A stretch of 64,000 nt of DNA from Candidatus Contendibacter sp. (GTDB lineage: Bacteria; Pseudomonadota; Gammaproteobacteria; Competibacterales; Competibacteraceae). The notes beneath the pieces are model-generated. The model worked only from the letters and a program-made list of their open reading frames with translations, did not search any database and was not told the DNA's origin. Every line of letters starts with the position of its first letter. Within the stretch, counting starts at the first letter, position 1. A program made the translations under genes and the position numbers. Location: contig JARSSP010000044.1 in the NCBI GenBank assembly GCA_029624675.1, positions 208,897 to 272,896 of the forward strand. The letters are read 5' to 3'. Below are positions 18,619 to 37,194 of this stretch, piece after piece.

Positions 18619-19719
18619 TCACGCAGGTTCCAAAACCGCCCGGATTCGTTCCAGAAAATTTTCTCGGCAAAACAATTGCGCCCGCTCCTGACACGCGGCC
18701 CGCATGGCCAGGGCGGGGTTGCGTTCCAACCGGCGCACCGCCTGGACGATGTCTGGCACGGTCAACGTGGAAGGGACCAAAATCCCCGTCTCGCCATCCA
18801 CGATGGTTTCCAGCAAGCCCCCCTCCGCCACCCCGATCACCGGCTTTCCCGCCGCCATGGCTTCGACCGGCGACATGCCAAAATCCTCATCCATGGGCAG
18901 ATAAATGGCCGCGCGGGCGTTGCCGATCCACTCCCGTAATTGCGCCTCGGATTGCCAGCCGGTGAAATGAATATTCCGGGCACCGGCCGCCAAGCGTCGC
19001 AGATTCTCCAGTTCGGGCCCCCCGGAAACCACCACCAGTCGCTGATCCGGCATCCGCAAAAAAGCCCGAACGATCCACTCCACCCGTTTGGGCTGGGTCA
19101 GTCGCGCCAGGGAAACGAAATAATCGCCCGCGCCCAGCCAGCGAAAGCGCGCCACGTCGATCGGCGGGTAAATAACCTGGGCCTCGACACCCAGATAGTG
19201 CTTCAACCGTCTTTGCACATTGCTGGAATTGGCGATCACCGCATCCATGCCCGCGAGCGCCTGCTCGTATTCGCGCCGAAACCAGCGGATGCCCGCGTCG
19301 AAGACCGGACGCCACGGCAGGGGTATCGCGTTCCGATAGCCGGCGGCCCAATCATAGGCGTACCGGGGCGGGGTATGGCAGTAGTAAATCTTTCGGCCGG
19401 CACGCTGATGGCGCACGGCCAGCGGCGCATAAAAGCCGCTGTACAGCACCACTTCGGCATGGCGCAGAAAGCGGGTGGTCGTCCTGAACCGCCAAAGGGC
19501 TTCGGGAACGCGGCCTACCCACCGGCTGACGCTGGAGCCGAGGCAACGAATCGCTGGCATCCTGATATCCAACGCGCCGGCCTCCGGATAAATCCGCGCG
19601 ACCACCAACTGGAATTCCGGGAACGCATCGGCCAGCGTCAAAGTCAACCGCTCGGCGCCACCCGCGACTTGCAGGTAGTCATACAAAATGAATCGGTTCG
19701 GTGGGCGCAAGTCGTTCAT
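18619..19719 (-). CDS. Glycosyltransferase family 4 (GT-B) protein
   Basis: 366 residues. The C-terminal half shows the GT4 signature: DAVIANSSNVQRRLKHYLGV, then VIYPPIDVARF, LARLTQPKRVEWIVRAFLR, VVSGGPELENLRRLA and the nucleotide-sugar site DEDFGMSPVEAMAAGKPVIG followed by GGLLETIVDGETG. It should add a sugar from a nucleotide donor to the growing surface glycan in the cytoplasm. The ATG at 19719 overlaps the stop of the upstream glycosyltransferase (ATGA). Last gene of the polysaccharide operon. The sugar is not predictable. Confidence 0.9.
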   Translation of the reverse strand: MNDLRPPNRFILYDYLQVAGGAERLTLTLADAFPEFQLVVARIYPEAGALDIRMPAIRCLGSSVSRWVGRVPEALWRFRTTTRFLRHAEVVLYSGFYAPLAVRHQRAGRKIYYCHTPPRYAYDWAAGYRNAIPLPWRPVFDAGIRWFRREYEQALAGMDAVIANSSNVQRRLKHYLGVEAQVIYPPIDVARFRWLGAGDYFVSLARLTQPKRVEWIVRAFLRMPDQRLVVVSGGPELENLRRLAAGARNIHFTGWQSEAQLREWIGNARAAIYLPMDEDFGMSPVEAMAAGKPVIGVAEGGLLETIVDGETGILVPSTLTVPDIVQAVRRLERNPALAMRAACQERAQLFCRENFLERIRAVLEPA

Positions 19720-20987
19720 CCCAGGCTGGACAACAACTGATGATAGGCGGCGGCCCGGCTTTCCCAGGCATGTTGGCGGATGGCGTCGCGCTGGGGGGAA
19801 AACAGCGCGTTCAGCCCACCGCCGCGCCAAGCCTCGATCAGTTTGGCCAAGGACTCGCAAATACGGGCCACGTCATTCTCGACCACCAGCCCCGCGCCCA
19901 ACGCTTGAATAAGTTCAGCGCCGGGATCTGGCGCCCCGGTTTGGAGATGAAAAATCGGTTTGCCCGCGCCGAAATACTCGTACACCTTGCCCGGCAACTG
20001 ATAAGCCTGGACATTGCCGATGTTGAGCAGCAGATCGGCTTGGCGCTGCAATGCCAGACACTGGAAATGATCGATCCTCCCGGTGAATCGAACGTTCGGA
20101 ATCTGATCGAACAGCGCGCGAAAACGGGCGTTGTCGCCGGCGATGGTGAGCGTCGCCTCCCGCGCCGCCAAGGCGCGCAGCGCCAGGGCCAGACGTTCGG
20201 GACTGCGAAAATCCCGGTAAAACGTGCCGGTGAACACGATGTTCATCCGGTCCGCGGGCAGCGGCCACGTGGGCGGTAGCTGATCTCCGGGCTCGCGACG
20301 GGTGGGAAAACCCTGTGGAATGGAGAGAAACCGGGAACGGTCAACGAGATGATGCCGTTCGCACAAAAGGTCTTGCACGGAATCCGTGGTGACCACGATG
20401 CGGTCCGCTCGATCCAGTACGAACCGCTCAAACCGGCGATCAAGGCCGCGGCGCCAGACCGGTGTGTAAGGAGCCAGGAGAGGATCGCCCAAATCGATCA
20501 CCCAGCGCCGTGCAAAATGTTTCTTAGCCCACCAGCCCAGCAAAAGATCCACGCCGGGTTCATGCGAGCTAATCACCGCGTCAAAAGGGTATTGCGCCAG
20601 CAGCGCGCGCAATTTCGGCTTCGCGAATGGATACCACTCCGTCCGCAGATCCGGATAAAGCACCTGATCGAGCCCTCGGCGGATCAACCGATAGACCGCC
20701 AGTAGCACTGAGGGGGTCGTATCGCCGGCGGTGGCGGAGAGGGCTGACCGCTTCAGCGCGTTGGACGCCAGTCGTTGCGAAAGCCCGACGTAAGGACCCG
20801 GCCAGACCCGATGGGGAATGACGCGATCGTGCGAGCGAACCGGATAGTCGGGCAACGCGGGCAGCGCGGGGCACAACACATGAACTTCAACCCCCCGGCG
20901 AGCCAGTTCATCGCTCAGGTAAAACCAGCGCAGCGACTGCGCCGCGATAATCGGCGGAAATTCGTAGGCGATGAGCAGGATACGCAA
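19716..20987 (-). CDS. Glycosyltransferase family 4-like protein
   Basis: 423 residues. N-terminal domain: MRILLIAYEFPPIIAAQSLRW, a typical GT4 start, then DAVISSHEPGVDLLLG and DRIVVTTDSVQDLLCERH. C-terminal domain: NIVFTGTFYRDFRSPERLALAL, ADLLLNIGNVQAYQLPGKVYEYFGAGKPIFHL. It is likely to transfer one residue of the exported glycan. It overlaps the downstream transferase by four bases and starts three bases after the wecB stop. Donor and acceptor are unknown. Confidence 0.87.
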   Translation of the reverse strand: MRILLIAYEFPPIIAAQSLRWFYLSDELARRGVEVHVLCPALPALPDYPVRSHDRVIPHRVWPGPYVGLSQRLASNALKRSALSATAGDTTPSVLLAVYRLIRRGLDQVLYPDLRTEWYPFAKPKLRALLAQYPFDAVISSHEPGVDLLLGWWAKKHFARRWVIDLGDPLLAPYTPVWRRGLDRRFERFVLDRADRIVVTTDSVQDLLCERHHLVDRSRFLSIPQGFPTRREPGDQLPPTWPLPADRMNIVFTGTFYRDFRSPERLALALRALAAREATLTIAGDNARFRALFDQIPNVRFTGRIDHFQCLALQRQADLLLNIGNVQAYQLPGKVYEYFGAGKPIFHLQTGAPDPGAELIQALGAGLVVENDVARICESLAKLIEAWRGGGLNALFSPQRDAIRQHAWESRAAAYHQLLSSLG

Positions 20988-20990
20988 CGG

Positions 20991-22091
20991 TTATCCCATC
21001 AGCGACTCGCGCAGGATGGCGGCGATCCGTTCCGCCGCATGGCCATCGCCATAGGGCGAGACGCCCCGCGCCATGGAGGCGTAATGATGGGGATCGTCCA
21101 GCAGCCGCGCCGATTCCGCCAGGATGGCGTCATAATCCGGCCCCACCAGCTTGACCACGCCGACGCTCACCGCCTCGGGCCGTTCCGTTTCCCGGCGCAA
21201 CACCAGAACCGGTTTACCCAAGGCCGGCGCTTCTTCCTGCACGCCGCCAGAATCGCTCAGGATCAAATAGGCGCGCTTCATGGCCGCGACGAAGGGTAAA
21301 TAATCCAACGGCTCGCACAAGTGGATGCGTGGATGACCGGACAGCAGGACCTTGGCGACTTCGGCGACGTTCGGATTGGGATGAACGGGGTAGAGAATCT
21401 CAAGGTCCGTATAGCGATCCGCCAACGCCCGAATGGCCAGGCAGATTTGGCGAAACGGTTCGCCGAAATTCTCCCGGCGATGCGCCGTGACCAGAATCAG
21501 CCGTTTGGAAGCATCCAGCGCCACGCCGAGGTCCAGATCGCGTGGGGCCACGGTCATCAGGGCGTCAATCACGGTATTGCCCGTGACCACAATCGTTTCG
21601 GCCGGGATGCCTTCCCGCACCAGGTTCTCCCTGGCGCTTTGGGTGGGGGCGAAATGCCAGCGCGCCAGACGGCCTGTCACCACCCGGTTCATTTCTTCTG
21701 GAAAGGGATTGCGCAGATCCCCGGTGCGCAGACCCGCTTCGACGTGTCCGACCGGGATCCGGTGATAGAAGCAGGCCAGAGCCACGCTTAAAACCGTGGT
21801 CGTATCGCCTTGTACCAAGGCCACGTCGGGCCGTTCGGCCTGCAACACGTCATCGAGATCGAGCAGCAGCCGCGCCGTCAGCGTGGTGAGCGCCTGATTG
21901 GGCCGCATGATGTCAAGATCGATATCCGGTTCGATCCCGAAAATCGCCAGCACCTGATCCAGCATATGCCGATGCTGCGCCGTGGCCAGCACCCGGACCT
22001 TGGCCCAACCTTCTTTTCTCAGAGTCAGGATGACCGGCGCCATTTTAATGGCCTCCGGCCGCGTGCCGACGACGCAAAGAATTTTGCCCAT
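20991..22091 (-). CDS. wecB: UDP-N-acetylglucosamine 2-epimerase
   Basis: 366 residues. MGKILCVVGTRPEAIKMAPVI at the start, GDTTTVLSVALACFYHRIPVGHVEAGLRTGD, FPEEMNRV, TAHRRENFGEP, HPNPNV and LSDSGGVQEEAPALGKPVLVLR are all WecB/MnaA motifs. It makes UDP-ManNAc from UDP-GlcNAc, giving a donor for the surface glycan. A GTG at 22103 would add four residues; the ATG at 22091 matches homologues. No wecC is seen in the window. Confidence 0.95.
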   Translation of the reverse strand: MGKILCVVGTRPEAIKMAPVILTLRKEGWAKVRVLATAQHRHMLDQVLAIFGIEPDIDLDIMRPNQALTTLTARLLLDLDDVLQAERPDVALVQGDTTTVLSVALACFYHRIPVGHVEAGLRTGDLRNPFPEEMNRVVTGRLARWHFAPTQSARENLVREGIPAETIVVTGNTVIDALMTVAPRDLDLGVALDASKRLILVTAHRRENFGEPFRQICLAIRALADRYTDLEILYPVHPNPNVAEVAKVLLSGHPRIHLCEPLDYLPFVAAMKRAYLILSDSGGVQEEAPALGKPVLVLRRETERPEAVSVGVVKLVGPDYDAILAESARLLDDPHHYASMARGVSPYGDGHAAERIAAILRESLMG

Positions 22092-22117
22092 CTCGATGCC
22101 CACAGGTTCGACTGTTG

Positions 22118-23044
22118 TTAGCGCGAGTCAGTTCGCGCTGCGACTACAACGAAATCGCTCTGAATATCTCCGGAATCGACAAGAGCGTCCTCGATGTTGA
22201 TTAACATGTCGAGAATCAGCATGGATTGAGGGTCCGACGGCTTGAAATTGCCCGCGATTCCACTTAGCAGAAATTGCAGAAGGGAACCACCACACTGGTT
22301 GATCGTCACGATATCGAACAAATTTTTGACAACCGGTAAGATATCTTGTGACCTTACTGCTTCGGATGGATCGGTACGCGCGACCTCCCTGGGATCAGGA
22401 ATTGGTGGAGTTTCCTGGTATTTATTTTTCCGATCCACAAAGGAACGCCGATACTGTAGTGGAATCAGAAAAAACGCATGTTGGATTGCATCACGCTGAC
22501 GGCTTGGGAAAGCAAAACGATTAAAACCCACATACTCGTTAAAAAATAACCATCCTCCGGGTTTTAGGGCTTGTTTAACTCGTTGGCATACAATCTCCAG
22601 CTCCTTGATGTGATGCAGTGAACCATTAAACCAGACGACATCATATTGTTTAGCGCCTAAATCCATGGCTTCGACATCATGTACTGAATAGGTGATGGAT
22701 TCGATGCCAAGTTGATTGGACTCATTCTTAGCCGCTTCTATAGCCTTGGGAGAAATGTCAACGGCATGGCAATGCTGAAATGCCTTTAAATTGAATAGGT
22801 GGCGTTCCAAGCTGCCAGTTCCACAACCGATACTGAGCATTTTTTGTACAGGGACGCGATCTCCTAAAAACTCTCCAACACAATATTCGATCCAACTTGG
22901 GTAAGGTTTGTTCGCACAAGCTCTCTTCTGATAATGCTTCTGAACATCTGGTACCGCCAACCAATAAACATCAGGAGAGAAAGGATTAGAGCCAGCCAAA
23001 TTTTCTGACCAGTAGTCAGCAATTTTTCGTTTGTCGTCATTCAT
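22118..23044 (-). CDS. Class I SAM-dependent methyltransferase
   Basis: 308 residues. The SAM-binding motif MLSIGCGTGSLERHLF is at about residues 69-84, followed by AVDISPKAIEAAK and YDVVWFNGSLHHIKELE, then LKPGGWLFFNEYVGF, a typical methyltransferase order. Its place in the polysaccharide locus suggests that it methylates a sugar or acts on a lipid-linked intermediate, but the target is not shown. It is more AT-rich than genes outside the locus. Start ATG at 23044 (MNDDKRK). Confidence 0.88.
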   Translation of the reverse strand: MNDDKRKIADYWSENLAGSNPFSPDVYWLAVPDVQKHYQKRACANKPYPSWIEYCVGEFLGDRVPVQKMLSIGCGTGSLERHLFNLKAFQHCHAVDISPKAIEAAKNESNQLGIESITYSVHDVEAMDLGAKQYDVVWFNGSLHHIKELEIVCQRVKQALKPGGWLFFNEYVGFNRFAFPSRQRDAIQHAFFLIPLQYRRSFVDRKNKYQETPPIPDPREVARTDPSEAVRSQDILPVVKNLFDIVTINQCGGSLLQFLLSGIAGNFKPSDPQSMLILDMLINIEDALVDSGDIQSDFVVVAARTDSR

Positions 23045-23090
23045 AACTTGATTTCCTCAGTGAAATCAATCGGCTCTTTGTGATTCGGTA

Positions 23091-26000
23091 TCAACGATGC
23101 GCGTGGGGTTTCCATTGCCCCCATTTCTTTTCATAATAAGCTTGGTTATTGGCCCAAATCCTTTGATATTCACCAGTTTCAATCAGCTTCTTGAATGCTG
23201 CCTGACCAAAGTGGTGAACAAATGCATCCTCAGCGCATACCACACGGAAGCCTTTTTCGCGAACGCGATTGCTATAATCGTCATCTTCAAACATGCCGAT
23301 TCCAAAGTTTTCATCCAGGAAACCTACACATTCGAATACACTACGCCGCATCGCTACACAAAACATGGCGAGCACCGCAATGTCGAAAATCTTGCCTGAA
23401 TGAGTATATATGTAACGGTCGGCGAATGATTCCATTTCATCCAGCGATGAGTAATCAACATCGACTTTGGCTTCGTTCCCCACAAAATTGGTTACAGGCC
23501 CAACCAATCCTATATTCGGATCTTTCAAATGCAGCAGCAGCGGATCAAGCCAGCCTCGAGGCATCACAGTGTCATTGTTCAGCAAAACAATGTATTCACC
23601 CGTAGCCACTTTAAGTCCCTGATTGTTGGCCACGGCAAAACCGAGATTTTGACTATTTAGAATAATCTTGACGCGATCGGAAGTCCGAGCCAGATAACGC
23701 AAATAATTGCGAGTATCATCGGACGAAGCATTATCCACGATAATGACCTCGTACCTGGGATATGTTGTGTTGCGGAAAATGCTTTCAATGCAAAGACGGG
23801 TCAAGTCACAATTGTTGTAGGTAATGACGATGATCGAAACTTTTTCATAAAGAGCAATGATTGCGGAAGAAAAAGCTTCAAAGCGGCTAGTCCAATCGTT
23901 ACGTTGAGCCAATTCTACTCTTCTGTTGAATAAATCAGGATCAATTTCGCCAAGCGCCATTTCAATCTTCCGTAGAAATTGCTCTGGTTGGCTGGCGAAA
24001 TAGATATAATCACTGTATATTTTCAATTCTTCCAATGGCACCGATACAATGGGTTTGCCAGCGCTAATGAATTCGTAAAACTTCACAGGATCAACTGCAT
24101 GCGTTACATTGTTAAGCTTGAACGGAATCAGGCATACATCGAAGTGGTAGAGGAATTTCGGCATGTCTAGATAAGGTTGCCGTCCTGGCATATACACATT
24201 AAATATTTTAGCCAATCCAGCCGTATCTTTGACAAAGATATCGCCGATCAATACAAAACTCCAATCAGGCCTGCTCTGCGCCAGGAAGGATAGTAATTCG
24301 AAATCAACCCATTCGGCTAGTGCTCCGTAGTAACCGATTATGGGGTGAGTTATATCCTCCAGCAAACGATTTGGAGAGCAATACTCCCTGAAAAATACAT
24401 AATCAACCGCATTCCGAATTAGTACGCAACGCTGGGCGACCGACGACCATTTTTCGTAAAGAAGCGATGCAGTAACAGTAACAAGATCGCTTTGTCGAAC
24501 CAAAATTTCCTCCTGGTCGATTAAGGCCTTGCCAATATTTGGAAAATCAACCCACTCATCCATGCAATCGTATAAAATTTTCCAGTCATATCGAGCTCTT
24601 AATTCAAGAGCCAGAGGCGTCCAGTAAGGAATATGAACCACCGAAAGGGCGGTCTTAATCCGATAATCCTTCATTAATTCAGCCAGGGATTCGAGGAAAT
24701 CGATCTTATTTCGATATTCCATCATCTCGCCATAGAAATTTTGAGTCAAGCCAACCCGTAAGCACACCTCATATACATGTTCGGCTACTTTTTCAACCAT
24801 GTAGGCTGTATTCGATGGAGGGAGTTTTGAGGCAATGATATAAAAAACCCGATAGCCATTTTTTGCAAACTGACTCATAATGTGTTGAGGACGCTGATAA
24901 CGCGCCGACCATTCAATGTTGGCGAAGCAAATTACATCGAAGGAAGCCAAGGCCGATTGAGCCGCAGATTGAGGGGCGACATTATCAACAACAGGTGACT
25001 GAACATCCAATGATTGCTGATCATTGGATGCGCCAATTATCGATTTTCCATGTTCAAAAGTTAACAGACTGGCCAACTTTTTACTCAAAAGTTTATCACA
25101 AGAATAAATCCATGTATGGTGGATGACATTGATAATTCCACCTTTATTGTAAGCATCTTTCACATCATGAATTCTCAGATCCATCCAGTTTCTAATATTC
25201 GCGGTGGACCTTAATGGAGAGGTGATTTTCCAGCTTAAGCTTGCGAGTAAGTCATTAACCCAGCGAGTTAGCTCCACCTCACGATATTCTAGATAATGAA
25301 CACGATTATCAAGACTCTCTCGCACCAGTTTGAGTTGATTTAACTCAGTTGAATTATTCCTCTTTTCTTCCTCTAATGCACGAATTCTGGCGCGAGCGGA
25401 TTCGATTTCGGCGCGAGCGGATTCGATTTCGGCGCGAGCGGATTCGATTTCGGCATTATATCTCGCAACTTCGGCGTCGCGACTTATCAAAGCAGTCTCT
25501 AATTCGAAGGCCGGCAGTTTACAATTTAGGTAAATATCCGGTCTTTCTATCGATATGCCTGTTACAAATTTACGTAATTCTAGCTCTTTCAGCAAATGAA
25601 CTGAATACTGCTCGTCAGAGATATCTAATCCACATGTTTTTACAGCCTTCTGAATGAAAGTTTTCCATTCAATTAATCTTCCATCATTGGGAATCGCACA
25701 CTGGGAAGTATTTCCAAGTGCCACAAACAATCCTCTGAATAGTAAAAAATCAAGCGTTATCGTGTCAGCACTCTCCCATTCCAAATCAAAGTGCTCAAAC
25801 CCACCATTATGTTTGACGATAATATTTTGTGGTAATAAATCTATGAAATACCCAGGCAAGTTGGCTTTGGACGATTCTTTATCAAGGTCAATACTTCGCA
25901 AACTAGCTACCGATCGTATTGCACGAATATAACGCTTTAAAAAAAATCCAACTTCGGATATTGACCATCCAGTACGACTGATAGTTTCGATGAATTCGCG

Positions 26001-27221
26001 TAAAAGAAGCTTCCCACTAATATAAGCCGAGCTATCTGGAACGGAAAAGTAAAGCTCTCCAGATGAAGTTGGTCCTCTATGATCTGCATTGGACGCAAGT
26101 CGGCGATATTGAACAATTATGTCGCCAGATTCTTTTTCGATAAATCGGGTTTCTTTACAAAATTGAGGTCGTCGCTCCGTAGTATAATGAAAAGCCAGAA
26201 TATTTGGCCTATTTGATTCCCGACTGGATATTGATGCAACGATGAGAAATGAATTGGCCATATCCATGGCTAACCCGTTTTTGAATATTTCAGGCCAGGC
26301 TAGTTCAAGCGCAAAACTGGTATGTACAGGCAGTTGAGGATCACGCCTGACGCTTTGCCACGCCAAGGTGGCCGCATCAAAGGCTTGGTTATTCATACCT
26401 TGCTCAGTCAAAATCGAAACAGGTAATTTGTAATCCGGGAATGGAGCTAAAAATTCCACCGATTCAAATCCAGCATCCTTCAGCATCCGTTTTAAAACAA
26501 CTTTGCCAAATGTTTGTGGTTGACCATTTCTATAGCGAGCCTCAATGCCATACATTGATTTTCCAAGGTGATCCTCGGGCGCACCGGCAAAATACTTCAA
26601 ACCTAGTTGGTTCTCTATTGCAATGATTAGCTTTCCACTGGGCTTTAATAGCGACTGGGCGCGCTGCAACATGGATAGCGCCGGATCATCATGGTTAGAA
26701 AATAAGTTAGCATACTCAAGCACGCCAATCAGAGTGATGACATCAAATTTCTGAGCACACTGAAACTGATTAAAGTCGTCCACAACTACAGCAACATTTG
26801 GCAGATCTCGTGTCCTTGATTTGGCAATAGCCGCACGCCGGGGACTACCTTCAAGTGCCAATACATTTCCACCGCACTCACCCAAATAACGGGTAATCGC
26901 TCCACAACCAGCACCAATTTCTAGGATATCCCCACGAAGATCGGCTTCAAAGGGGCGCAAGATATTAGCACGCGCGCTGGTAAGGTGATACAACGATGGC
27001 CAGTCGATGCAATATTGGCGAAGTTCAGTGGATAATACTGTAATATTGTTTGCCTGCTTGATTAAGCCGGCAATGCGTTGCTCAACTTCATCGCCATCCG
27101 AATAGGAAAAATGGAAGCGGTTTCGATTGGGTAGCCAACACTGGCTGTTCTCATCAAACCGGTAGTCGTCAAGGGATAAATTTATGCTCTGACCAGGCAG
27201 GTCGATAGTACTATTTTTCAT
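23091..27221 (-). CDS. Multidomain methyltransferase/kinase-like/coiled-coil/glycosyltransferase fusion
   Basis: 1376 residues. Order of parts: SAM methyltransferase with ILEIGAGCGAITRYL (about 99-113) and FDVITLIGVLEYANLF. A possible kinase-like region follows (about 340-500), with FCKETRF near 354 and FIDLLPQNIIV...FDLEW (459-482), in which D461 and N466 look like a catalytic loop. A coiled coil with three exact AEIESAR heptads spans about 580-660. A GT-B domain runs from about 760 to 1110 (YQRPQHIM, YYGALAEWVDFELL, PVKFYEFISAGKPIV). A C-terminal GT2 domain starts near 1127 (VSIIVITYNN, IVDNASSDDT, LLNNDT). The methyltransferase-kinase-coiled coil order recalls E. coli WbdD, the chain terminator and ruler of ABC-exported O-antigen; here it is fused to two transferases. 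The kinase reading is an inference. It lies between wzt and a second methyltransferase. Confidence 0.85.
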   Translation of the reverse strand: MKNSTIDLPGQSINLSLDDYRFDENSQCWLPNRNRFHFSYSDGDEVEQRIAGLIKQANNITVLSTELRQYCIDWPSLYHLTSARANILRPFEADLRGDILEIGAGCGAITRYLGECGGNVLALEGSPRRAAIAKSRTRDLPNVAVVVDDFNQFQCAQKFDVITLIGVLEYANLFSNHDDPALSMLQRAQSLLKPSGKLIIAIENQLGLKYFAGAPEDHLGKSMYGIEARYRNGQPQTFGKVVLKRMLKDAGFESVEFLAPFPDYKLPVSILTEQGMNNQAFDAATLAWQSVRRDPQLPVHTSFALELAWPEIFKNGLAMDMANSFLIVASISSRESNRPNILAFHYTTERRPQFCKETRFIEKESGDIIVQYRRLASNADHRGPTSSGELYFSVPDSSAYISGKLLLREFIETISRTGWSISEVGFFLKRYIRAIRSVASLRSIDLDKESSKANLPGYFIDLLPQNIIVKHNGGFEHFDLEWESADTITLDFLLFRGLFVALGNTSQCAIPNDGRLIEWKTFIQKAVKTCGLDISDEQYSVHLLKELELRKFVTGISIERPDIYLNCKLPAFELETALISRDAEVARYNAEIESARAEIESARAEIESARARIRALEEEKRNNSTELNQLKLVRESLDNRVHYLEYREVELTRWVNDLLASLSWKITSPLRSTANIRNWMDLRIHDVKDAYNKGGIINVIHHTWIYSCDKLLSKKLASLLTFEHGKSIIGASNDQQSLDVQSPVVDNVAPQSAAQSALASFDVICFANIEWSARYQRPQHIMSQFAKNGYRVFYIIASKLPPSNTAYMVEKVAEHVYEVCLRVGLTQNFYGEMMEYRNKIDFLESLAELMKDYRIKTALSVVHIPYWTPLALELRARYDWKILYDCMDEWVDFPNIGKALIDQEEILVRQSDLVTVTASLLYEKWSSVAQRCVLIRNAVDYVFFREYCSPNRLLEDITHPIIGYYGALAEWVDFELLSFLAQSRPDWSFVLIGDIFVKDTAGLAKIFNVYMPGRQPYLDMPKFLYHFDVCLIPFKLNNVTHAVDPVKFYEFISAGKPIVSVPLEELKIYSDYIYFASQPEQFLRKIEMALGEIDPDLFNRRVELAQRNDWTSRFEAFSSAIIALYEKVSIIVITYNNCDLTRLCIESIFRNTTYPRYEVIIVDNASSDDTRNYLRYLARTSDRVKIILNSQNLGFAVANNQGLKVATGEYIVLLNNDTVMPRGWLDPLLLHLKDPNIGLVGPVTNFVGNEAKVDVDYSSLDEMESFADRYIYTHSGKIFDIAVLAMFCVAMRRSVFECVGFLDENFGIGMFEDDDYSNRVREKGFRVVCAEDAFVHHFGQAAFKKLIETGEYQRIWANNQAYYEKKWGQWKPHAHR
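25391..25453. repeat. Three perfect 21-bp tandem repeats in the coiled-coil region
   Basis: Three identical 21-base copies lie at 25391-25411, 25412-25432 and 25433-25453. On the coding (minus) strand each encodes exactly one heptad, AEIESAR (residues 590-610 of the fusion protein). Gain or loss of a unit would lengthen or shorten the coiled coil by one heptad without a frameshift. Confidence 0.95.
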
Positions 27222-27242
27222 GTAATCTTCTCTCTGTAAAAG

Positions 27243-27974
27243 TCACGATGAATAATAATTGATGATGTCATCCACAGATCCCCTCATTTTTATGAGGCCA
27301 TGTTGCAACCATATGACATCATTGCAAAGCTGCTTGATTGCGCTTGGGTTATGTGAAACAACAAGAATTGTTGATCCATTATTGGAGTATTGTAGAATTC
27401 TTTGTGCAGATTTTTTCTGAAACTCAACATCTCCCACTGATAATATTTCATCAATAACCAGGATATCTGGCTGAACATCGGTTGCAACCGCAAATCCCAG
27501 TCTTGCCACCATGCCGCTGGAATAGGTACGAATTGGAGCGTCAATAAACTCGCTGATGCCAGAAAATTCCACGATTCTATCCAAGCGGCTTGCAATATCT
27601 TTTCGATTAAAACCCAATACGGCTCCATTGAGAAAAATATTTTCCCTGCCTGTCATCTCATAGTCGAACCCTGCACCCAGTTCCAATAATGGCGCGATGC
27701 GTCCTCTCAGAAAAACGCGACCGTACGTTGGGCGAATAACCCTTGAGATAACCTTAAGCAGGGTGCTCTTGCCAGCGCCGTTGGCGCCAATGATGCCGAC
27801 TGTTGCACCCTGCTTGATCGAGAAACTGACATTGTTCAATGCATTGAAGTCGGAAAAACTGACACTACGTCTCTTCAGCCAACGTATCGCATATTCCTGC
27901 AACGTGGGAATCTTTTCATGAGGAATGCGAAACCGTACCGTTACGTCATTGAGTTGTATCGCGGTATTTTCCAT
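27243..27974 (-). CDS. wzt: Polysaccharide ABC exporter ATPase (Wzt/KpsT type)
   Basis: 243 residues. Walker A is GANGAGKST, the Q-loop region includes ISRVIRPTYGRVFLRGRIAPLLELGAGFD, the ABC signature is YSSGMVARLGFA and Walker B is PDILVIDEI. AALLELGAGF-type sequence is typical of polysaccharide exporters (ABC-2 family). The protein ends soon after the nucleotide-binding domain, so it lacks the C-terminal carbohydrate-binding domain of E. coli O9a Wzt. It is two bases downstream of the permease and powers export of undecaprenyl-linked glycan. Confidence 0.94.
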   Translation of the reverse strand: MENTAIQLNDVTVRFRIPHEKIPTLQEYAIRWLKRRSVSFSDFNALNNVSFSIKQGATVGIIGANGAGKSTLLKVISRVIRPTYGRVFLRGRIAPLLELGAGFDYEMTGRENIFLNGAVLGFNRKDIASRLDRIVEFSGISEFIDAPIRTYSSGMVARLGFAVATDVQPDILVIDEILSVGDVEFQKKSAQRILQYSNNGSTILVVSHNPSAIKQLCNDVIWLQHGLIKMRGSVDDIINYYSS

Positions 27975-27976
27975 TA

Positions 27977-28789
27977 TTACAGGCGATAGGCAAGTTGGTC
28001 AGCCTTGCTGGTGAACAGGACCCAGCCAGCGACCAAGGTGATTAGCGCGAGAGATGCGGCGTTTACAACGAGACTGAAATCTGGGAGATGGTTGGCATGG
28101 ATCGGTATTCGAAAAACTTCGATTAGAATAACGAAAGGATTCAATGCAAGCAATTGATTTAGCTCGGGTGGAAGAATTGATGGGGGATACATGATGGGGG
28201 TTAGGAAGAATAAAGCCTGAATCAGCACCTGATAAATATCGACCGTATCGGTGAAGAATACTGACGCGGTGGATAAAAATAGTGCAAGACCCAGCGAGAA
28301 AATAGCCAGAATCACGATACTGACTGGTAAAAACAGCCAAGCCCAGGTTATTTCATGGTGGAGGAAAATGATAATGACCAACAGAGCGCCAACCGAAACG
28401 ACCAAATTGACCAAACCATTGCCGACCGCTGCGATAATATAGGTGGCGCGTGGAATATAGACCCTTTTCAGCAATCCCCCACCATAGGCCATGCTGTTCA
28501 TGGCGTATTGGGTGGTTTGTGTGATAAAGTTCCACGCTAACAATCCAGTCAAGAGATAAACTGCGTAACTGGGTATTGATGACTTGAACATCGTCCCGAA
28601 TGCGACACTGAGCACGATCGTCTGCAACAGTGGATTGAGCAGCATCCAGAAGACGCCCAGCACCGAACGCTTGTAGCGGTTCTTCAGGATGCTTTCCACC
28701 ATCAAGAAGATCAAGTCGCGATAACGAATCAGTTGAAAAAATTCGTCGATCGCGGGCGGTGGTCTTTTAGCTGAATCGTACTCAAGCAT
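27977..28789 (-). CDS. wzm: Polysaccharide ABC exporter permease (Wzm type)
   Basis: 270 residues with about six membrane segments (for example AVYLLTGLLAWNFITQTTQYAM, LVNLVVSVGALLVIIIFLHHE, WAWLFLPVSIVILAIFSLGLALFL). The cytoplasmic start holds LIFLMVESILKNRYKRSVLGVFW, the classic ABC-2 polysaccharide exporter motif. It is first in the minus-strand operon, followed by wzt. The start ATG at 28789 lies only eight bases from the divergent ATG at 28798, so the promoters of the two genes must lie inside each other's coding region. The frame is open upstream to 29071, but that extension has no conserved content. Confidence 0.93.
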   Translation of the reverse strand: MLEYDSAKRPPPAIDEFFQLIRYRDLIFLMVESILKNRYKRSVLGVFWMLLNPLLQTIVLSVAFGTMFKSSIPSYAVYLLTGLLAWNFITQTTQYAMNSMAYGGGLLKRVYIPRATYIIAAVGNGLVNLVVSVGALLVIIIFLHHEITWAWLFLPVSIVILAIFSLGLALFLSTASVFFTDTVDIYQVLIQALFFLTPIMYPPSILPPELNQLLALNPFVILIEVFRIPIHANHLPDFSLVVNAASLALITLVAGWVLFTSKADQLAYRL

Positions 28790-28797
28790 TATTCGAA

Positions 28798-30132
28798 ATG
28801 GATACCAATTTTTTTTTGATCGACACGGTGATCGCGGGCGGTCTATTGGCGTTTGCGATCGCATTCTTCCTGAGTCGGCGCTTGGCGCGCGCGGTCGCCT
28901 TGCCGGGCTTGCTCGATCATCCCAATGCGCGTTCCTTGCACCAGCGGCCCGTTCCAAGAACCGGCGGGTTGGCCATGCTGGCGGGAATGATGATCGGTAT
29001 GTCGCCAACGATGCTCGCGACCGCCGACCCGCCGCTTCAAGCTTTTGGACCTGTTTTCGCGGGCTTGGCATCGCTGGCGTTGGTTGCGTTGGTCGATGAC
29101 TGCCAGGGTGTCGCCGCTAGGTGGCGCATCTTAGTTCATCTGCTGGCCGCTGTCAGCCTGTTGGCGGCTGGTCTTGCTCCCGACCGTTTCGAACTTCCCG
29201 GTCTTGCCTGGCCCATTCCCGTCTGGGTAACAACTCCCCTGACCCTGTTGCTCATCGTCTGGATGATCAACCTCTACAACTTCATGGATGGCATGGACGG
29301 CTTCGCCGGCGGCATGGCGGTGATCGGGTTTGCCACGCTAGCCTGGTTGGGACGGGCCGATGGCGGGTTCGTAACCCTTTGCCTGACGACGGCGGCGGCC
29401 AGCGCCGGGTTCCTAGTCCATAATTTCCCGCCGGCGAAACTCTTTCTCGGCGACACCGGCTCCACCACTCTAGGCTTCCTGGCAGTGGCGTGCGGCTTGT
29501 GGGGCAACAAGGTCGGACTGTTCCCGTTCTGGGTGGCGTTGCTGGTATTTTCGCCGTTTATCACCGACGCAACCGTAACTCTTCTGCGTCGCCTGCTGCG
29601 CGGCGAGAAGGTTTGGGAAGCCCATCGAACCCATTGTTATCAACGCCTGGTGCTGCTCGGCTGGGGCCATCGCCGAACGGTGTTGGTCGAGTACGCACTG
29701 ATGCTGACCTGTGCCGGGTCGGCGCTGTTGGCGGTCCGGTTGCCCCCCGCCGGCCAGGTGGCGCTGACAGTTGGTTGGATAGTCGTCTACGGACTCCTGA
29801 TGGGGTGCGTGGAGTGGTTGGAGCGGCGGCATGTCGCCTTGGCACCGCTTGCTCGTTCAATAGCGTTGCAGGATCAGCTCCAGCACCAGCTTGCTGCCGA
29901 AATAGGCCAACGCCAGAAAAGCGAAGCCGCTCAGGGTCCAGCGAATGGCGGTGCGACCGCGCCAGCCGAAGCGCCAGCGGCCCCACAACAGCACCCCAAA
30001 CACCCCCCAGGCCACGAACGAAAGCGTCGCCTTATGCGCCAAGTGTTGGGCAAACAGGTCGTGCAGGAAAAACAAGCCGCTGACCAGGGTGATGCCGAGC
30101 AGGACAAAACCGGCGCCAATCATCTGGAATAA
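28798..30132 (+). CDS. WecA/WbpL-type undecaprenyl-phosphate glycosyl-1-phosphate transferase
   Basis: Glycosyltransferase family 4 (MraY/WecA) membrane protein. It shows LLDHPNARSLHQRPVPRTGG, the aspartates in LVDDCQGVAARW, NFMDGMDGFAGGMAV, KLFLGDTGSTT and AHRTHCYQRLVLLG, with about ten membrane segments. It starts polysaccharide synthesis by moving a sugar-1-phosphate from a UDP-sugar onto undecaprenyl phosphate. The conserved part ends near residue 350. The frame continues for about 90 charged, Gln/Ala-rich residues that are antisense to ypjD (276 bases of overlap); this tail is either real or the result of a lost stop codon. It faces wzm. Confidence 0.82.
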   Translation: MDTNFFLIDTVIAGGLLAFAIAFFLSRRLARAVALPGLLDHPNARSLHQRPVPRTGGLAMLAGMMIGMSPTMLATADPPLQAFGPVFAGLASLALVALVDDCQGVAARWRILVHLLAAVSLLAAGLAPDRFELPGLAWPIPVWVTTPLTLLLIVWMINLYNFMDGMDGFAGGMAVIGFATLAWLGRADGGFVTLCLTTAAASAGFLVHNFPPAKLFLGDTGSTTLGFLAVACGLWGNKVGLFPFWVALLVFSPFITDATVTLLRRLLRGEKVWEAHRTHCYQRLVLLGWGHRRTVLVEYALMLTCAGSALLAVRLPPAGQVALTVGWIVVYGLLMGCVEWLERRHVALAPLARSIALQDQLQHQLAAEIGQRQKSEAAQGPANGGATAPAEAPAAPQQHPKHPPGHERKRRLMRQVLGKQVVQEKQAADQGDAEQDKTGANHLE

Positions 30133-32610: not shown

Positions 32611-33732
32611 TCAGTGCAGTTTTGTTAACGAGACTGTCTCTTCACAGTCCGCATGGTGGGCGGCAATGGTCTTGAATTCGTCCAGGCAGGCCAGGAAGGC
32701 GTCAACAACGGCGGGGTCAAAATGGGTGCCCCGCCCCTCGCGGATCACCTCAACTGCTTGCTTGAATGGAAGCGGCGCCTTGTAGACTCGCCAGCTGATG
32801 AGGGCGTCGAACACATCAGCCAGTGCCATCAATCGGGCCGGGATGGGAATGGCCTCACCAGCCAGCCCGTCGGGATAACCGGAACCATCCCATTTTTCGT
32901 GGTGGTAGTGAGCGATGTCCTTGGCCAGGTGCAGAAATTCCACTGGCTGGTCGGTATCCCGCTCGGCCAGTTCAATGGCATCGCGGCCCAGACGACTGTG
33001 AGTCTGCATGATCGCATACTCTTCGGGCGTGAGCTTGCCGGGTTTGAGCAGGATGTGATCAGGAATGCCGACCTTGCCGATGTCATGCAACGGAGCCGAC
33101 TTCACCAACGCCTGAATGTTTTGAGCGTTCAGAAACGCGGCGAAGCGCGGATGCGTCCGCAAGTGCAGGGCCAGCACCTGGACGTAACTCTGGGTGCGGC
33201 GCAGGTGGTTGCCGGTTTCCGGGTCGCGGATTTCGGCCAGATGGGCCAGGGCGCGGATGCTGACCTCCTGAATCAGTAGGTTCTCTTTCAGCCGCCGCGT
33301 CACCTCGGCTTCCAGGACGGCGTTGCGATCCTGTAGCCAGTCGCGAGCCGCCTTGAGGTCCAGGTGGATTTTGACCCGCGCCAGCACGAGCGCCGGTTTG
33401 ATCGGTTTGCTGATGTAGTCCACCGCCCCCAGCGCCAGGCCGCGTTCTTCATCGCTGCTGCGATCCAGAGCGGTGACGAAAATCACCGGGATGGCGGCGG
33501 TGGCTGGATCGTCCCGCAACCGGGCGAGGACCGTATAGCCATCCATTTCCGGCATCATGACATCGAGCAGAATCAGGTCGGGGCGCGGGGCGCTGGCCGC
33601 CACCTGCAAGGCGCGGCGGCCCGAATTGGCGGCCCGCACCTGGTAATGGGGTTGCAGCAACTCGCTCAGCACCGAAAGATTCTCGGGAGTGTCGTCAACG
33701 ATGAGAATGGTTGGCGCGCTGTCTTTTGCCAT
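32611..33732 (-). CDS. Response regulator with HD-GYP phosphodiesterase domain
   Basis: 373 residues. Receiver domain: TILIVDDTPENLSVL, phosphorylation aspartate in DLILLDVMMPEMDG, conserved lysine in YISKPIKP. Then a short coiled linker and an HD-GYP domain with SAPLHDIGKVGIPDHILLKPG, THSRLG, HHEKWDGSGYPDGLAGEAIP and RLMALADVFDAL. HD-GYP proteins hydrolyse cyclic di-GMP. The ATG at 33732 has AAGGG about nine bases upstream; a GTG at 33768 is an alternative. It follows the hybrid kinase by about 40 bases and is the likely output of that signalling system. Confidence 0.93.
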   Translation of the reverse strand: MAKDSAPTILIVDDTPENLSVLSELLQPHYQVRAANSGRRALQVAASAPRPDLILLDVMMPEMDGYTVLARLRDDPATAAIPVIFVTALDRSSDEERGLALGAVDYISKPIKPALVLARVKIHLDLKAARDWLQDRNAVLEAEVTRRLKENLLIQEVSIRALAHLAEIRDPETGNHLRRTQSYVQVLALHLRTHPRFAAFLNAQNIQALVKSAPLHDIGKVGIPDHILLKPGKLTPEEYAIMQTHSRLGRDAIELAERDTDQPVEFLHLAKDIAHYHHEKWDGSGYPDGLAGEAIPIPARLMALADVFDALISWRVYKAPLPFKQAVEVIREGRGTHFDPAVVDAFLACLDEFKTIAAHHADCEETVSLTKLH

Positions 33733-33774
33733 TTCACCGACCCTTTCGCGATCAATGGTCGCAATCACGTCAAT

Positions 33775-36700
33775 TCAGGCGACCCCGTGAGTTGTCGCCG
33801 TTGCCCGCAAGACTTGCAGTGCCGTGTCATATTCGAAATGCTCGATGGCGCTGCCGATCTGGATCGCGGCAGGCCCTAGCGCCGCCATGACCAGGGGCGC
33901 ACACTCGCGCCAGACTTGCCCAACTTGCGTGTCGTCGACCATCAGCAGGGCTTCCAGTTGCACCAGCATATGGCGCGTTCGCACCGCGTCGACAGCTTCA
34001 TGCAGCAGCGGCGGCGCCGCCAGTTCCAGCCGCCGGATCGCGGCCAGTAGCGGGGTCAGCACCGCATCAACCGCGCTGATGCCGGCTTCCAGCTCCGCGT
34101 CGTCCGCGTCGCTGCTCAGCGCCCTCTTCAGCGCCAGGGCGCTCCGGCAAACCGCCTCGGCCCCCAGGGTCGCCGCCACGCCCTTGAGCGTGTGGGCCAG
34201 CCGGCGTGCGTCGCTCCTTCGGCCGGCCGCCAGATGCGCGCGCAGCGTCGCCGCGTCGCCGCCATGCTCCCGGGCGAACAGGTCCAGCAAGCGCGCATAG
34301 CGAGCCCAGTTGCCCGAGACCGCTTTCAGCCCCGTCTCGACTTCCAGCCCGGCCACACCGACCGGAGCGGCCTGCTCCGGGGCTATCCGAACTGGCGCTT
34401 CCTCGACCGGCGCCGCCTCGACCGGCTCCGGCAGCCAGCGCAGCAAGGTGGTGTAGAGCTGGTTCGGTTCGACGGGTTTGCGGACATAGTCGTTCATGCC
34501 TACGTCCAGACAACGCTGGCGGTCGGTGTCGAAGGCGCTGGCGGTCATCGCCAGAATGGGCAGTGTCGCCGCGTCGGGCAATTGACGGATCGCCTGAGTG
34601 GCGGCCAGGCCATCCATGACTGGCATCTGCATGTCCATCAGCACCAGGGCGTAAGCGCCGGCGCGGACTTTTTCCACCGCGATCAGGCCATTGTCGGCCA
34701 CGTCCACCGTTAAGCCAACCGCTCGCAACAGGTCGACGGCCACTTCCTGGTTGATGGGGTCGTCTTCGACCAGCAACAGCCGCGCTCCCCGATACCGCTG
34801 GGCCAAAATCTGATCGGCCGACGCAAGCTCGGCATCAACCACGTCGGCGCTGGCTGGGCTTTCAGCCACCCGGCCCAGCCGGGCGGTCAACCAGAAGGTG
34901 CTGCCGACGCCGGCCTGGCTTTCCACCCCCACCTCTCCACCCATCAGGTTCGCCAGCCGTTTGGCGATGGCCAGACCCAGGCCGGTTCCGCCATATTGGC
35001 GGGTGGTCGAGTCGTCGGCCTGGACGAAGGCCTGAAACAACCGCGCCTGTTGCTCCGGCGTCAGGCCAATGCCCTGGTCGGCCACCTCCAAGCGCAGCAG
35101 CACGCTCTGTTCGTCCTCGGTCTCGATGCGGACACGCAGAGTGATCTGGCCACGCTCGGAAAACTTGATGGCGTTGCTCACGAAGTTCAGCAGGATCAGC
35201 CCCAACCGCAGAGGGTCGCCGCGCAGCCGCGCTGGCACGGCGGCGGCGATGACCGACACCAGGCGCAGGCCTTTGGCGGCCGCCCGCTCGCCGAGCAGGC
35301 TCAGTGTATGATCCAAGACCCGGGCCAACGAGAATTCGGTTTCCTCCAGGGTGAGCCGGCCGGCCTCGATCTTGGACAGGTCGAGAATGTCGTTGAGAAT
35401 GCGCAGCAGATGCTGAGCGGCGTCGTTGATCTTGTCCAGCCGATCCGCCTGTTCGGGCGTGGGGTCGGCTCGCCGCAACAGGTGGGTCAGCCCGATGATG
35501 GCGTTCATCGGGGTGCGGATTTCATGACTCATGTTGGCCAGAAACACGCTTTTGGCCCGGTTCGCCGCTTCGGCCGCATCCTTGGCTTCGGCCAGATCCG
35601 CGGTGCGGGACAGCACCAGATCTTCCAGGCGGTGGCGATAGCGGTCGAGTTCCTGCTCGATCCGCTTGCGTTGGGTGATGTCCTGAAAAGCCGTCACGGT
35701 ACCCACGATCTCGCTGTCCTCAAACAGGGGGGCGGTGATGATCTCCACCGGAAAACCGGCGCCATCCTGGCGGAAGAACCACTCTTCCTGGGAGCGGACC
35801 TGGCCATCTTGCCGGGTGAGGTAAATCGGACATTCGGTAACTGGGTACGGCTGGCCGTCGGGGCGATGGTGGTGAAACAGCACATGTTGATCCTGCCCGA
35901 GCGCCGCGTCCGGGTCTATGCCGAGCATCGACCCAGCGGCGGGATTGATGAAGCGGCAACGCCCCTGGACATCCGTGCCATAAACCCCTTCGCCCAGGGC
36001 GTTGAGAATGGCGCTCTGCCGCGCTTCGCTGTCCGCCAGCCGCGCCATGCTGGCCTTGACCCGCCGGCGCTCCACCTTCAGCCAGCGATTGGTTCGCCAC
36101 AATCGGACTGTGATCAGCAGTAGGATCAGACCTCCGATCAAGGCAGCGAGGGTGATGGCGTTATGGTGGCGGTCCCAGATATCGCGCGGCGAAAATTGGG
36201 GAGCGTCGTCGAAGGGCGGCAGGCGCAGCTCGCGCAGCAGATCATCCACCGGATGGTAGTTGGCGGGAATGGTAAAACCCTGGATGCGGCAGGCTCGCGC
36301 CACCGCGCCATCGTGAGGCAACGCCAGCAAGGCCGCCGCCACTTGGCGGGCCAGGGCGATGTCAGTCGTCGGCATGGCCACAAACGCCCATTCGGGATAC
36401 AGGCGCGTGGACAAGTGATGGGGAAAACTCGCCACGGTCCGCGGATTGAGGATTTTCAGCGCCGCGGCATCCAGCTTGCCTTCCCGAACCATGGCCTCGA
36501 TCACCCCGGTGCGCACGAACCCCGCGTCCGCCTGACCTGTCAACACCGCTTGCACCACCCGATCTTGCGGTGGTTGGGTTTCGATCACCTTGGCGTCCTG
36601 GGGCAGGCGAACGCCGGCGCGGGCCAGTTCCAGGGCCTGCATCTGGTAGCTGCCGAGGGAGTCCGTCGTGGCGGTCGCCAGGATTTTCCCCCGAAGATCG

Positions 36701-37194
36701 GCGAGGGTAGCGATATCGTCGCGGTTGGCGCGCGTGAAGATAACGCCGCCGAACACATCCAGGGGGTAACCGCCGACTTTGTCGACCAAGGTAGCGAGCG
36801 GCGAGGAAACCCCGTCGCGGTAGGTCATCAGAACATAATGCGCGGGCTGGGTAAGGAGGAAATCGACCTGCCCCTCGGCAATCGCGGTCTCCAGCTCCGG
36901 GTAGTGGTAAACCGTCAACACAAAACGGTGGCTGGGCACCGTCTGGTTCAGATAGTCGGCCAGCGGTTGCCAGCGCGCCAGCATCTCTGGCTTGGGCCGG
37001 AACGACAGTACGGCCATTCTCACCGGTTCCGGGTCGCCGGCACCCAAAGGCGTCAGCAGTCCCAGGGCGGTCCCTCCCGAGTCGTCGGCGCTCAAAGGCG
37101 TCAACAGTCCCAGGGCGAAGGTGAAGATAAGCAACAGTCGTTCCACCCGGCTGAACCAGGGCGTAGCCACGGTGGCGCGGGTTGGGCCGATCAT
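33775..37194 (-). CDS. Hybrid sensor histidine kinase with PhnD-type periplasmic sensor
   Basis: 1139 residues. A hydrophobic leader ([15 protein letters not shown]) precedes a periplasmic PhnD-like substrate-binding domain (about 56-325: [38 protein letters not shown]). A membrane segment follows at about 347-363, then a PAS domain with PAC (about 393-510), HisKA with [16 protein letters not shown] (His557), HATPase ([18 protein letters not shown]), a receiver with [11 protein letters not shown] and [12 protein letters not shown] (Asp854), and an Hpt domain with [13 protein letters not shown] (His1001). The extracytoplasmic sensor resembles oxyanion-binding proteins. It passes phosphate through receiver and Hpt, probably to the HD-GYP regulator next door. 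Confidence 0.93.
37033..37117. repeat. 37-bp imperfect direct repeat at the start of the hybrid kinase gene
   Basis: Two 37-base copies, 37033-37069 and 37081-37117, differ at only a few bases. On the coding strand they give [11 protein letters not shown] and [11 protein letters not shown], so the C-terminal end of the leader peptide is duplicated. A slippage duplication is the simple explanation. Confidence 0.85.

Follow-up and report, generated by a model that had tools for sequence, protein, structure and literature searches.

The stretch analysed here (the window) comprises 64,000 nucleotides of contig JARSSP010000044.1 from Candidatus Contendibacter sp., a member of the Competibacteraceae. 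It carries a tight operon in which the genes of an ATP-binding cassette (ABC) transporter, wzm and wzt, are followed by a long open reading frame (ORF) for a 1376-residue protein, P0001; a PF00953 gene for the likely initiating enzyme is divergent. The P0001 frame starts with ATG 21 bp past the wzt stop, contains no internal stop and is preceded by an AG-rich stretch that forms a plausible ribosome-binding site. Profile searches together with an AlphaFold2 (AF2) model of the kinase fold bear out the module order that an earlier note, made from the letters alone, had read in this chain: a methyltransferase, a kinase, a coiled coil, a GT-B glycosyltransferase (GT) and a GT2 glycosyltransferase. 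At the C-terminal end, residues 844-1117 match a TuaH-like GT-B in the NCBIfam profile search and residues 1129-1299 match PF00535 (E 3e-31) in Pfam.

Table 1. Features of the P0001 operon and its surroundings (window positions).
Feature	Position	Strand	Evidence
GT4-type glycosyltransferase, downstream	19716..20987	-	Pfam
UDP-N-acetylglucosamine (UDP-GlcNAc) 2-epimerase (WecB type)	20991..22103	-	PF02350 E 1e-118
Separate class I methyltransferase, 308 aa, last gene of low-GC block	22118..23044	-	Pfam, GC profile
P0001, methyltransferase-kinase-coiled coil-GT-B-GT2 protein	23091..27221	-	ORF, Pfam/NCBIfam, AF2 models
P0001 GT2 domain, residues 1126-1376 (N1215-x-D1217, EDD 1312-1314)	23094..23846	-	Pfam PF00535
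P0001 TuaH-like GT-B domain, residues ~760-1117	23871..24944	-	NCBIfam NF047676 E 9.8e-30
P0001 coiled coil, heptad pattern clearest at residues ~569-645, proposed molecular ruler	25287..25517	-	Pfam scan, sequence pattern
21-bp tandem repeat x3.5 (96% match), one heptad per unit	25381..25454	-	Repeat search
P0001 predicted APH/choline-kinase-type kinase domain, residues ~334-560 (D461, N466, D479, E481)	25542..26222	-	AF2 pLDDT (predicted local distance difference test) 90.4; AmiN 6sui Z 8.3; LicA motif alignment; conservation
P0001 class I S-adenosylmethionine (SAM) methyltransferase domain, residues ~36-333 (E101-x-G103-x-G105-x-G107; Y40, Y78, E124, Y170 conserved)	26223..27116	-	Pfam, AF2 model, conservation
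Wzt ATPase, 243 aa, without Wzt_C (cap-binding) domain	27243..27974	-	Pfam, NCBIfam
Wzm permease (ABC-2), start inferred, ORF opens at 29071	27977..28792	-	PF01061
WecA/MraY-type polyprenyl-phosphate sugar-1-phosphate transferase, divergent, likely initiating enzyme	28798..30132	+	PF00953 E 1.2e-32

The N-terminal module is a class I methyltransferase, the profile of which covers residues 85-255 (Pfam/NCBIfam). AF2 models were built with 75 family members in the alignment, and the model of residues 1-575 reached a pLDDT of 93.2. Aligned with VIA-align, CgnL (7pd7) falls within its tied top group of matches (Z 15.7). Six residues of the SAM site (Y40, Y78, G103, G105, E124 and Y170) correspond, with a constant offset of +12, to Y28, Y66, G91, G93, E112 and Y158 of ORF6 from the Klebsiella pneumoniae O7 cluster, and in five relatives of P0001 the six positions have exactly the O7 ORF6 numbering.

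Both Foldseek and VIA-align listed only methyltransferases for the whole 1-575 model, and the kinase stretch was therefore folded separately. Residues 322-572 alone gave a pLDDT of 90.4, and the model aligns best with the amicoumacin kinase AmiN (6sui; VIA-align Z 8.3 over 183 residues, root-mean-square deviation 4.1), with aminoglycoside phosphotransferases (APH(3')) and choline kinases next in rank; the 50 best structural rows are kinases without exception. With the same model Foldseek returned nothing under E 0.001, its first rows being mostly RIO, Eph and MPH kinases. Since this is so and the structural Z values are middling, the assignment of a kinase fold rests on the consistent family of matches and on the motif. 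D461-x4-N466-x12-D479 has canonical kinase spacing, with the +5/+13 steps also reported for D351/N356/D369 of WbdD, and a profile of the stretch aligns to the choline kinase LicA at the level of the motif (HIDLVPEN...LIDWEY, E 0.058). The earlier note had proposed a kinase here from D461, N466 and the motif FDLEW (D479, E481), all of which lie where it placed them, and had suggested a structure prediction of residues 330-520 as a check; the model of the 330-560 stretch is a kinase fold that matches kinases only and has D461 and N466 in the catalytic motif.

These residues are strongly conserved in the family: none of the 89 aligned relatives departs from D461, N466 or E481, and 87 of them have D479. 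Basic residues are also conserved in the N-lobe (R350 in 88 of 89, K356 in 77 of 89). The kinase of P0001 shows no sign of decay, because its divergence (0.31) is the norm for the family (0.34 ± 0.05); with the catalytic residues invariant as well, we rejected the possibility of a dead kinase. Neither Pfam nor NCBIfam matches the kinase stretch of P0001, and Pfam gave no meaningful match to it in 74 relatives. WbdD is absent from the 50 best structural rows, which does not exclude a kinase of the WbdD type, and no WbdD chain occurs among the PDB sequence matches listed for P0001 (the best 60 of 61 at E up to 1), for the kinase profile A4 (at E up to 10) or for profile A2 (the best 60 of 98). 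As modelled, the stretch is a domain of the APH/choline-kinase type, an assignment that stops short of identity to the WbdD kinase. In one relative, P0002 (L040:6525-9590), the N-terminus is much extended, and ~100 residues of repeat-like sequence interrupt the kinase ahead of the catalytic loop.

In the coiled coil of P0001, a single heptad recurs 3.5 times over residues 590-614, encoded by the 21-bp tandem DNA repeat. Across 88 genes of the family, tandem arrays with a period of at least 20 bp are confined to the coiled coil and keep the reading frame; their periods are 21, 42, 63, 105, 126, 147, 54 or 75/150 bp, of which 54 bp encode 18 residues (7+11), likewise a coiled-coil period. Heptad-sized (21n bp) or 54-bp repeats of the coiled coil occur in the window (25381-25454) and in relatives L074, L076, L081, L082, L083, L093, L069, L071, L059 and L060. 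L074 and L076, which are 95% identical over ~1550 residues, differ by one 18-residue unit of the coiled coil and by no other insertion or deletion of three or more residues; the coiled coils of L069 and L071 differ by 49 residues, those of L059 and L060 by 7, and those of L083 and L095 by 18. Among 15 independent pairs compared, insertions or deletions of at least seven residues outside the coiled coil were found in a single pair, of large Methylophilus proteins. At the level of sequence, whole-unit steps between close relatives are the pattern expected of a spacer that sets a distance, and they suggest that the length of such a ruler changes by slippage of heptad-sized DNA repeats. By analogy with WbdD, the length of the glycan chain would follow that of the coiled coil.

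P0001 belongs to a large family. Scanned with the single sequence, the genome contigs gave no relatives; with alignment A1, the scan of 84,980 species genomes found them at 580 loci or more. The order to which genome G485 belongs, when sampled evenly, has a member in 12 of 349 genomes. Many of the best 80 of the at least 580 are joined to GT modules (GT2+GT2, GT2+WbsX or GT-B), and others stop after the coiled coil. The identical order of five modules occurs in L086 (Nitrospira; with a further C-terminal methyltransferase) and L100 (Lysobacteraceae), the C-terminal halves of which are 38% identical to that of P0001 (E about 1e-140). Judged from N-terminal sequences, a WecB-type epimerase gene comes after the fused protein in both loci, as in the window. 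Larger proteins of 2000-3000 residues, with the methyltransferase-kinase in mid-chain or near the end and no Wzt in the stretch examined, occur at L108-L112, L114, L103, L116 and L120. On the Citrobacter braakii conjugative plasmid pF217-3 (L149), rfbABCD-type genes, an ABC transporter and a methyltransferase-kinase terminator form an O-antigen-like set.

The transporter of the operon stands apart from those of the relatives. Pfam finds no Wzt_C (PF14524) in the 243-residue Wzt, in agreement with the earlier note, which had described this protein as lacking the carbohydrate-binding domain (CBD). Wzt_C is present in 58 of the 59 Wzt proteins scanned, namely 57 from surveyed loci, that of the window and that of a second cluster in the same genome. 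Each of the 57 Wzt proteins beside relatives has at least 340 residues and a Wzt_C domain (57/57, Pfam). Seven more loci also have Wzt_C, one of them (L182) containing only the end of Wzt, so that the domain is present wherever a Wzt could be detected next to a relative (64 of 64); in 36 of 93 surveyed loci no Wzt is in reach, in some because the locus is short. The pairing of a ruler-type terminator with a CBD-less Wzt, as in the window, is thus found in 0 of these 64 related loci. The window Wzt groups with other CBD-less Wzt proteins (support 0.86) on long branches, and its origin is therefore not firm; its best NCBIfam matches include a galactan-export ATPase.

The genome (completeness 100) contains exactly one Wzt_C, which lies in a second wzm-wzt cluster 2.8 kb past the end of the window. 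Relocation of the CBD within the P0001 cluster was rejected, as none is found in P0001 or the scanned neighbours and the genome has this one copy. The second cluster, also ABC-dependent and O-antigen-like, lies ~40 kb away (G000:C44 about 273900-284500; L136:5897-16325) and holds the CBD-bearing Wzt and a 513-residue methyltransferase-coiled-coil protein (L136:13966-15507).

Judged by residue positions and by structural neighbours of the models, the closest described protein to P0001 is K. pneumoniae O7 ORF6 rather than WbdD. In vitro, ORF6 caps the non-reducing end with methyl-phosphate, and export fails in the D441A mutant (Kelly et al. 2024, PMC11231755). Like P0001, it is a protein of ~1400 residues with a methyltransferase, a kinase without a Pfam match, a coiled coil and two C-terminal GT modules; the two also share the SAM-site residues, wzm-wzt in the cluster and the nearest structures, CgnL for the methyltransferase and AmiN for the kinase (PMC11231755). 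In contrast, the kinase of ORF6 is separated from the coiled coil by a carbohydrate-binding module (CBM) with an immunoglobulin fold, and both of its GT modules are of the GT2 kind, where P0001 has a GT-B and a GT2; the CBD-less Wzt of the window is likewise unlike O7. WbdD of Escherichia coli O9a and K. pneumoniae O3 also joins a methyltransferase-kinase to a coiled-coil ruler in an ABC-dependent pathway, but polymerisation there falls to a second protein, WbdA, the WbdD kinase reportedly resembles eukaryotic tyrosine kinases, and the Wzt of that pathway has a CBD. The description of P0001 as WbdD-like was right as to function and imprecise as to kinship, because the O7 kinase is unlike that of WbdD in sequence and structure (PMC11231755) and ORF6 is the closer protein.

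In its domain order, P0001 unites terminator modules and two GT modules in one polypeptide as do WbbB and WsaE. WbbB of K. pneumoniae O12 and R. terrigena combines termination, ruler and two polymerising GTs, although its terminator is a transferase of beta-linked 3-deoxy-D-manno-oct-2-ulosonic acid (beta-Kdo) and not a methyltransferase-kinase. WsaE of Geobacillus stearothermophilus (PMC2943079) has a capping N-terminal methyltransferase and two glycosyltransferases and serves an ABC export pathway, but its cap is a 2-O-methylated rhamnose, its three domains include no kinase, and another factor is thought to be needed for length (PMC2943079). Since O7 ORF6, WbbB (O12) and WsaE already show terminator and polymerase in one chain, the idea that growth, ending and length control are carried by a single enzyme describes a known design and not a new one. 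The CBD-less Wzt has its counterpart in the transporter of K. pneumoniae O1/O2a, a system that differs in having no coiled-coil terminator and in deriving length from the coupling of synthesis and export. For terminated O-antigens, Wzt carries a CBM in every example (PMC11231755), and with the CBD-less transporters of K. pneumoniae O1/O2a and Vibrio cholerae O1 the end modifications come without length control (PMC10629545). None of PMC11231755, PMC9445017 and PMC10629545 describes a CBD-less transporter combined with a terminator of the ruler type.

We consider it likely that P0001 is the polymerase-terminator of an ABC-dependent surface polysaccharide, with methyl-phosphate capping gated by the ruler and a cap that probably does not act as an export ticket. 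The PF00953 initiator (28798-30132) would start a lipid-linked glycan, which the GT-B and GT2 modules, perhaps with neighbouring GTs, would polymerise at the membrane. The kinase (D461) would then phosphorylate the non-reducing end and the methyltransferase would methylate the phosphate; for this cap and this order of reactions we draw on O7 ORF6. As in WbdD, the coiled coil would act as a ruler, keeping the kinase and methyltransferase sites away from the polymerase such that only chains of sufficient length are capped, and Wzm/Wzt would export the glycan without reading the cap. The cap thus probably ends growth and fixes length without serving as an export ticket, because the window Wzt is devoid of the cap-binding domain that is present in every Wzt detected next to a relative (64 of 64). 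Several observations weigh against this proposal. The link to O7 ORF6 is drawn from published residue numbers and shared structural neighbours, and P0001 seems to lack a CBM of the O7 type, there being no room for one where the coiled coil starts (~569) right after the kinase. The usual beta-3 lysine (position 372) is not conserved across the family, and ATP binding by the putative kinase may therefore differ in detail from the usual. Finally, a CBD-less O9a transporter failed to export capped chains (PMC9445017).

The absence of the CBD could also mean that length is set elsewhere: the methyltransferase-kinase would cap some chains as a surface epitope, and the balance of polymerisation and export would determine their length, as with the CBD-less transporter of K. 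pneumoniae O2a. The grouping of the window Wzt with CBD-less proteins and its match to a galactan-export ATPase agree with this, and the methyl group of V. cholerae O1 Ogawa and the pyruvate of Klebsiella O1 are precedents for such epitopes (PMC10629545, PMC11231755). These precedents, however, have no coiled-coil terminator fused to a polymerase, whereas P0001 keeps its coiled coil, heptad repeats and catalytic residues, and we regard this explanation as rather unlikely. It is less probable still that the cap remains an export ticket, read directly by the window Wzm/Wzt or by the CBD-bearing Wzt of the second cluster. That the only Wzt_C of the genome sits in this cluster is in its favour, but wzm and wzt share a tight operon with P0001, and the methyltransferase-coiled-coil protein of the second cluster could provide that cluster with its own cap. 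Least probable, in our estimate, is that P0001 is no terminator and that its methyltransferase and kinase modify internal sugars. The separate methyltransferase of the operon (22118-23044) could then make the end cap instead, and the 36 loci with no Wzt in reach would fit; against this stand the findings for O7 ORF6, which is built of the same modules: in vitro it acts as a cap-forming enzyme at the non-reducing end, and export fails in the D441A mutant (PMC11231755).

The genes from wzm to the 308-residue methyltransferase form an island of low GC content (window 22000-28900, including wzt and P0001). Because its GC content is 40-50%, against ~62% around it, the block was probably acquired. 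Elsewhere in the window, a hybrid sensor kinase (33775-37194) combines an N-terminal phosphonate-type binding domain with PAS, receiver and Hpt domains and is followed by an HD-domain response regulator (32611-33768).

The published rule pairs a ruler-type terminator with a transporter that reads the cap, and the window locus has the first without the second. If the locus works, capping and length control would be uncoupled from an export checkpoint thought to be obligatory. We advance only tentatively the fuller picture of a ruler, terminator and polymerase paired with a transporter unable to read the cap, in which the enzyme alone would fix chain length, with no checkpoint at export, and in which the ruler would evolve, and may vary, by slippage of its heptad repeats. 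As a natural operon with a terminator but no cap reader, the locus therefore offers a direct test of whether termination by itself sets length. For the family, coiled coils that differ by whole repeat units suggest a route by which the length of O-antigens could be retuned in evolution. The kinase family has hundreds of members and no Pfam model that recognises it, and naming it would allow many surface-polysaccharide loci to be re-annotated.

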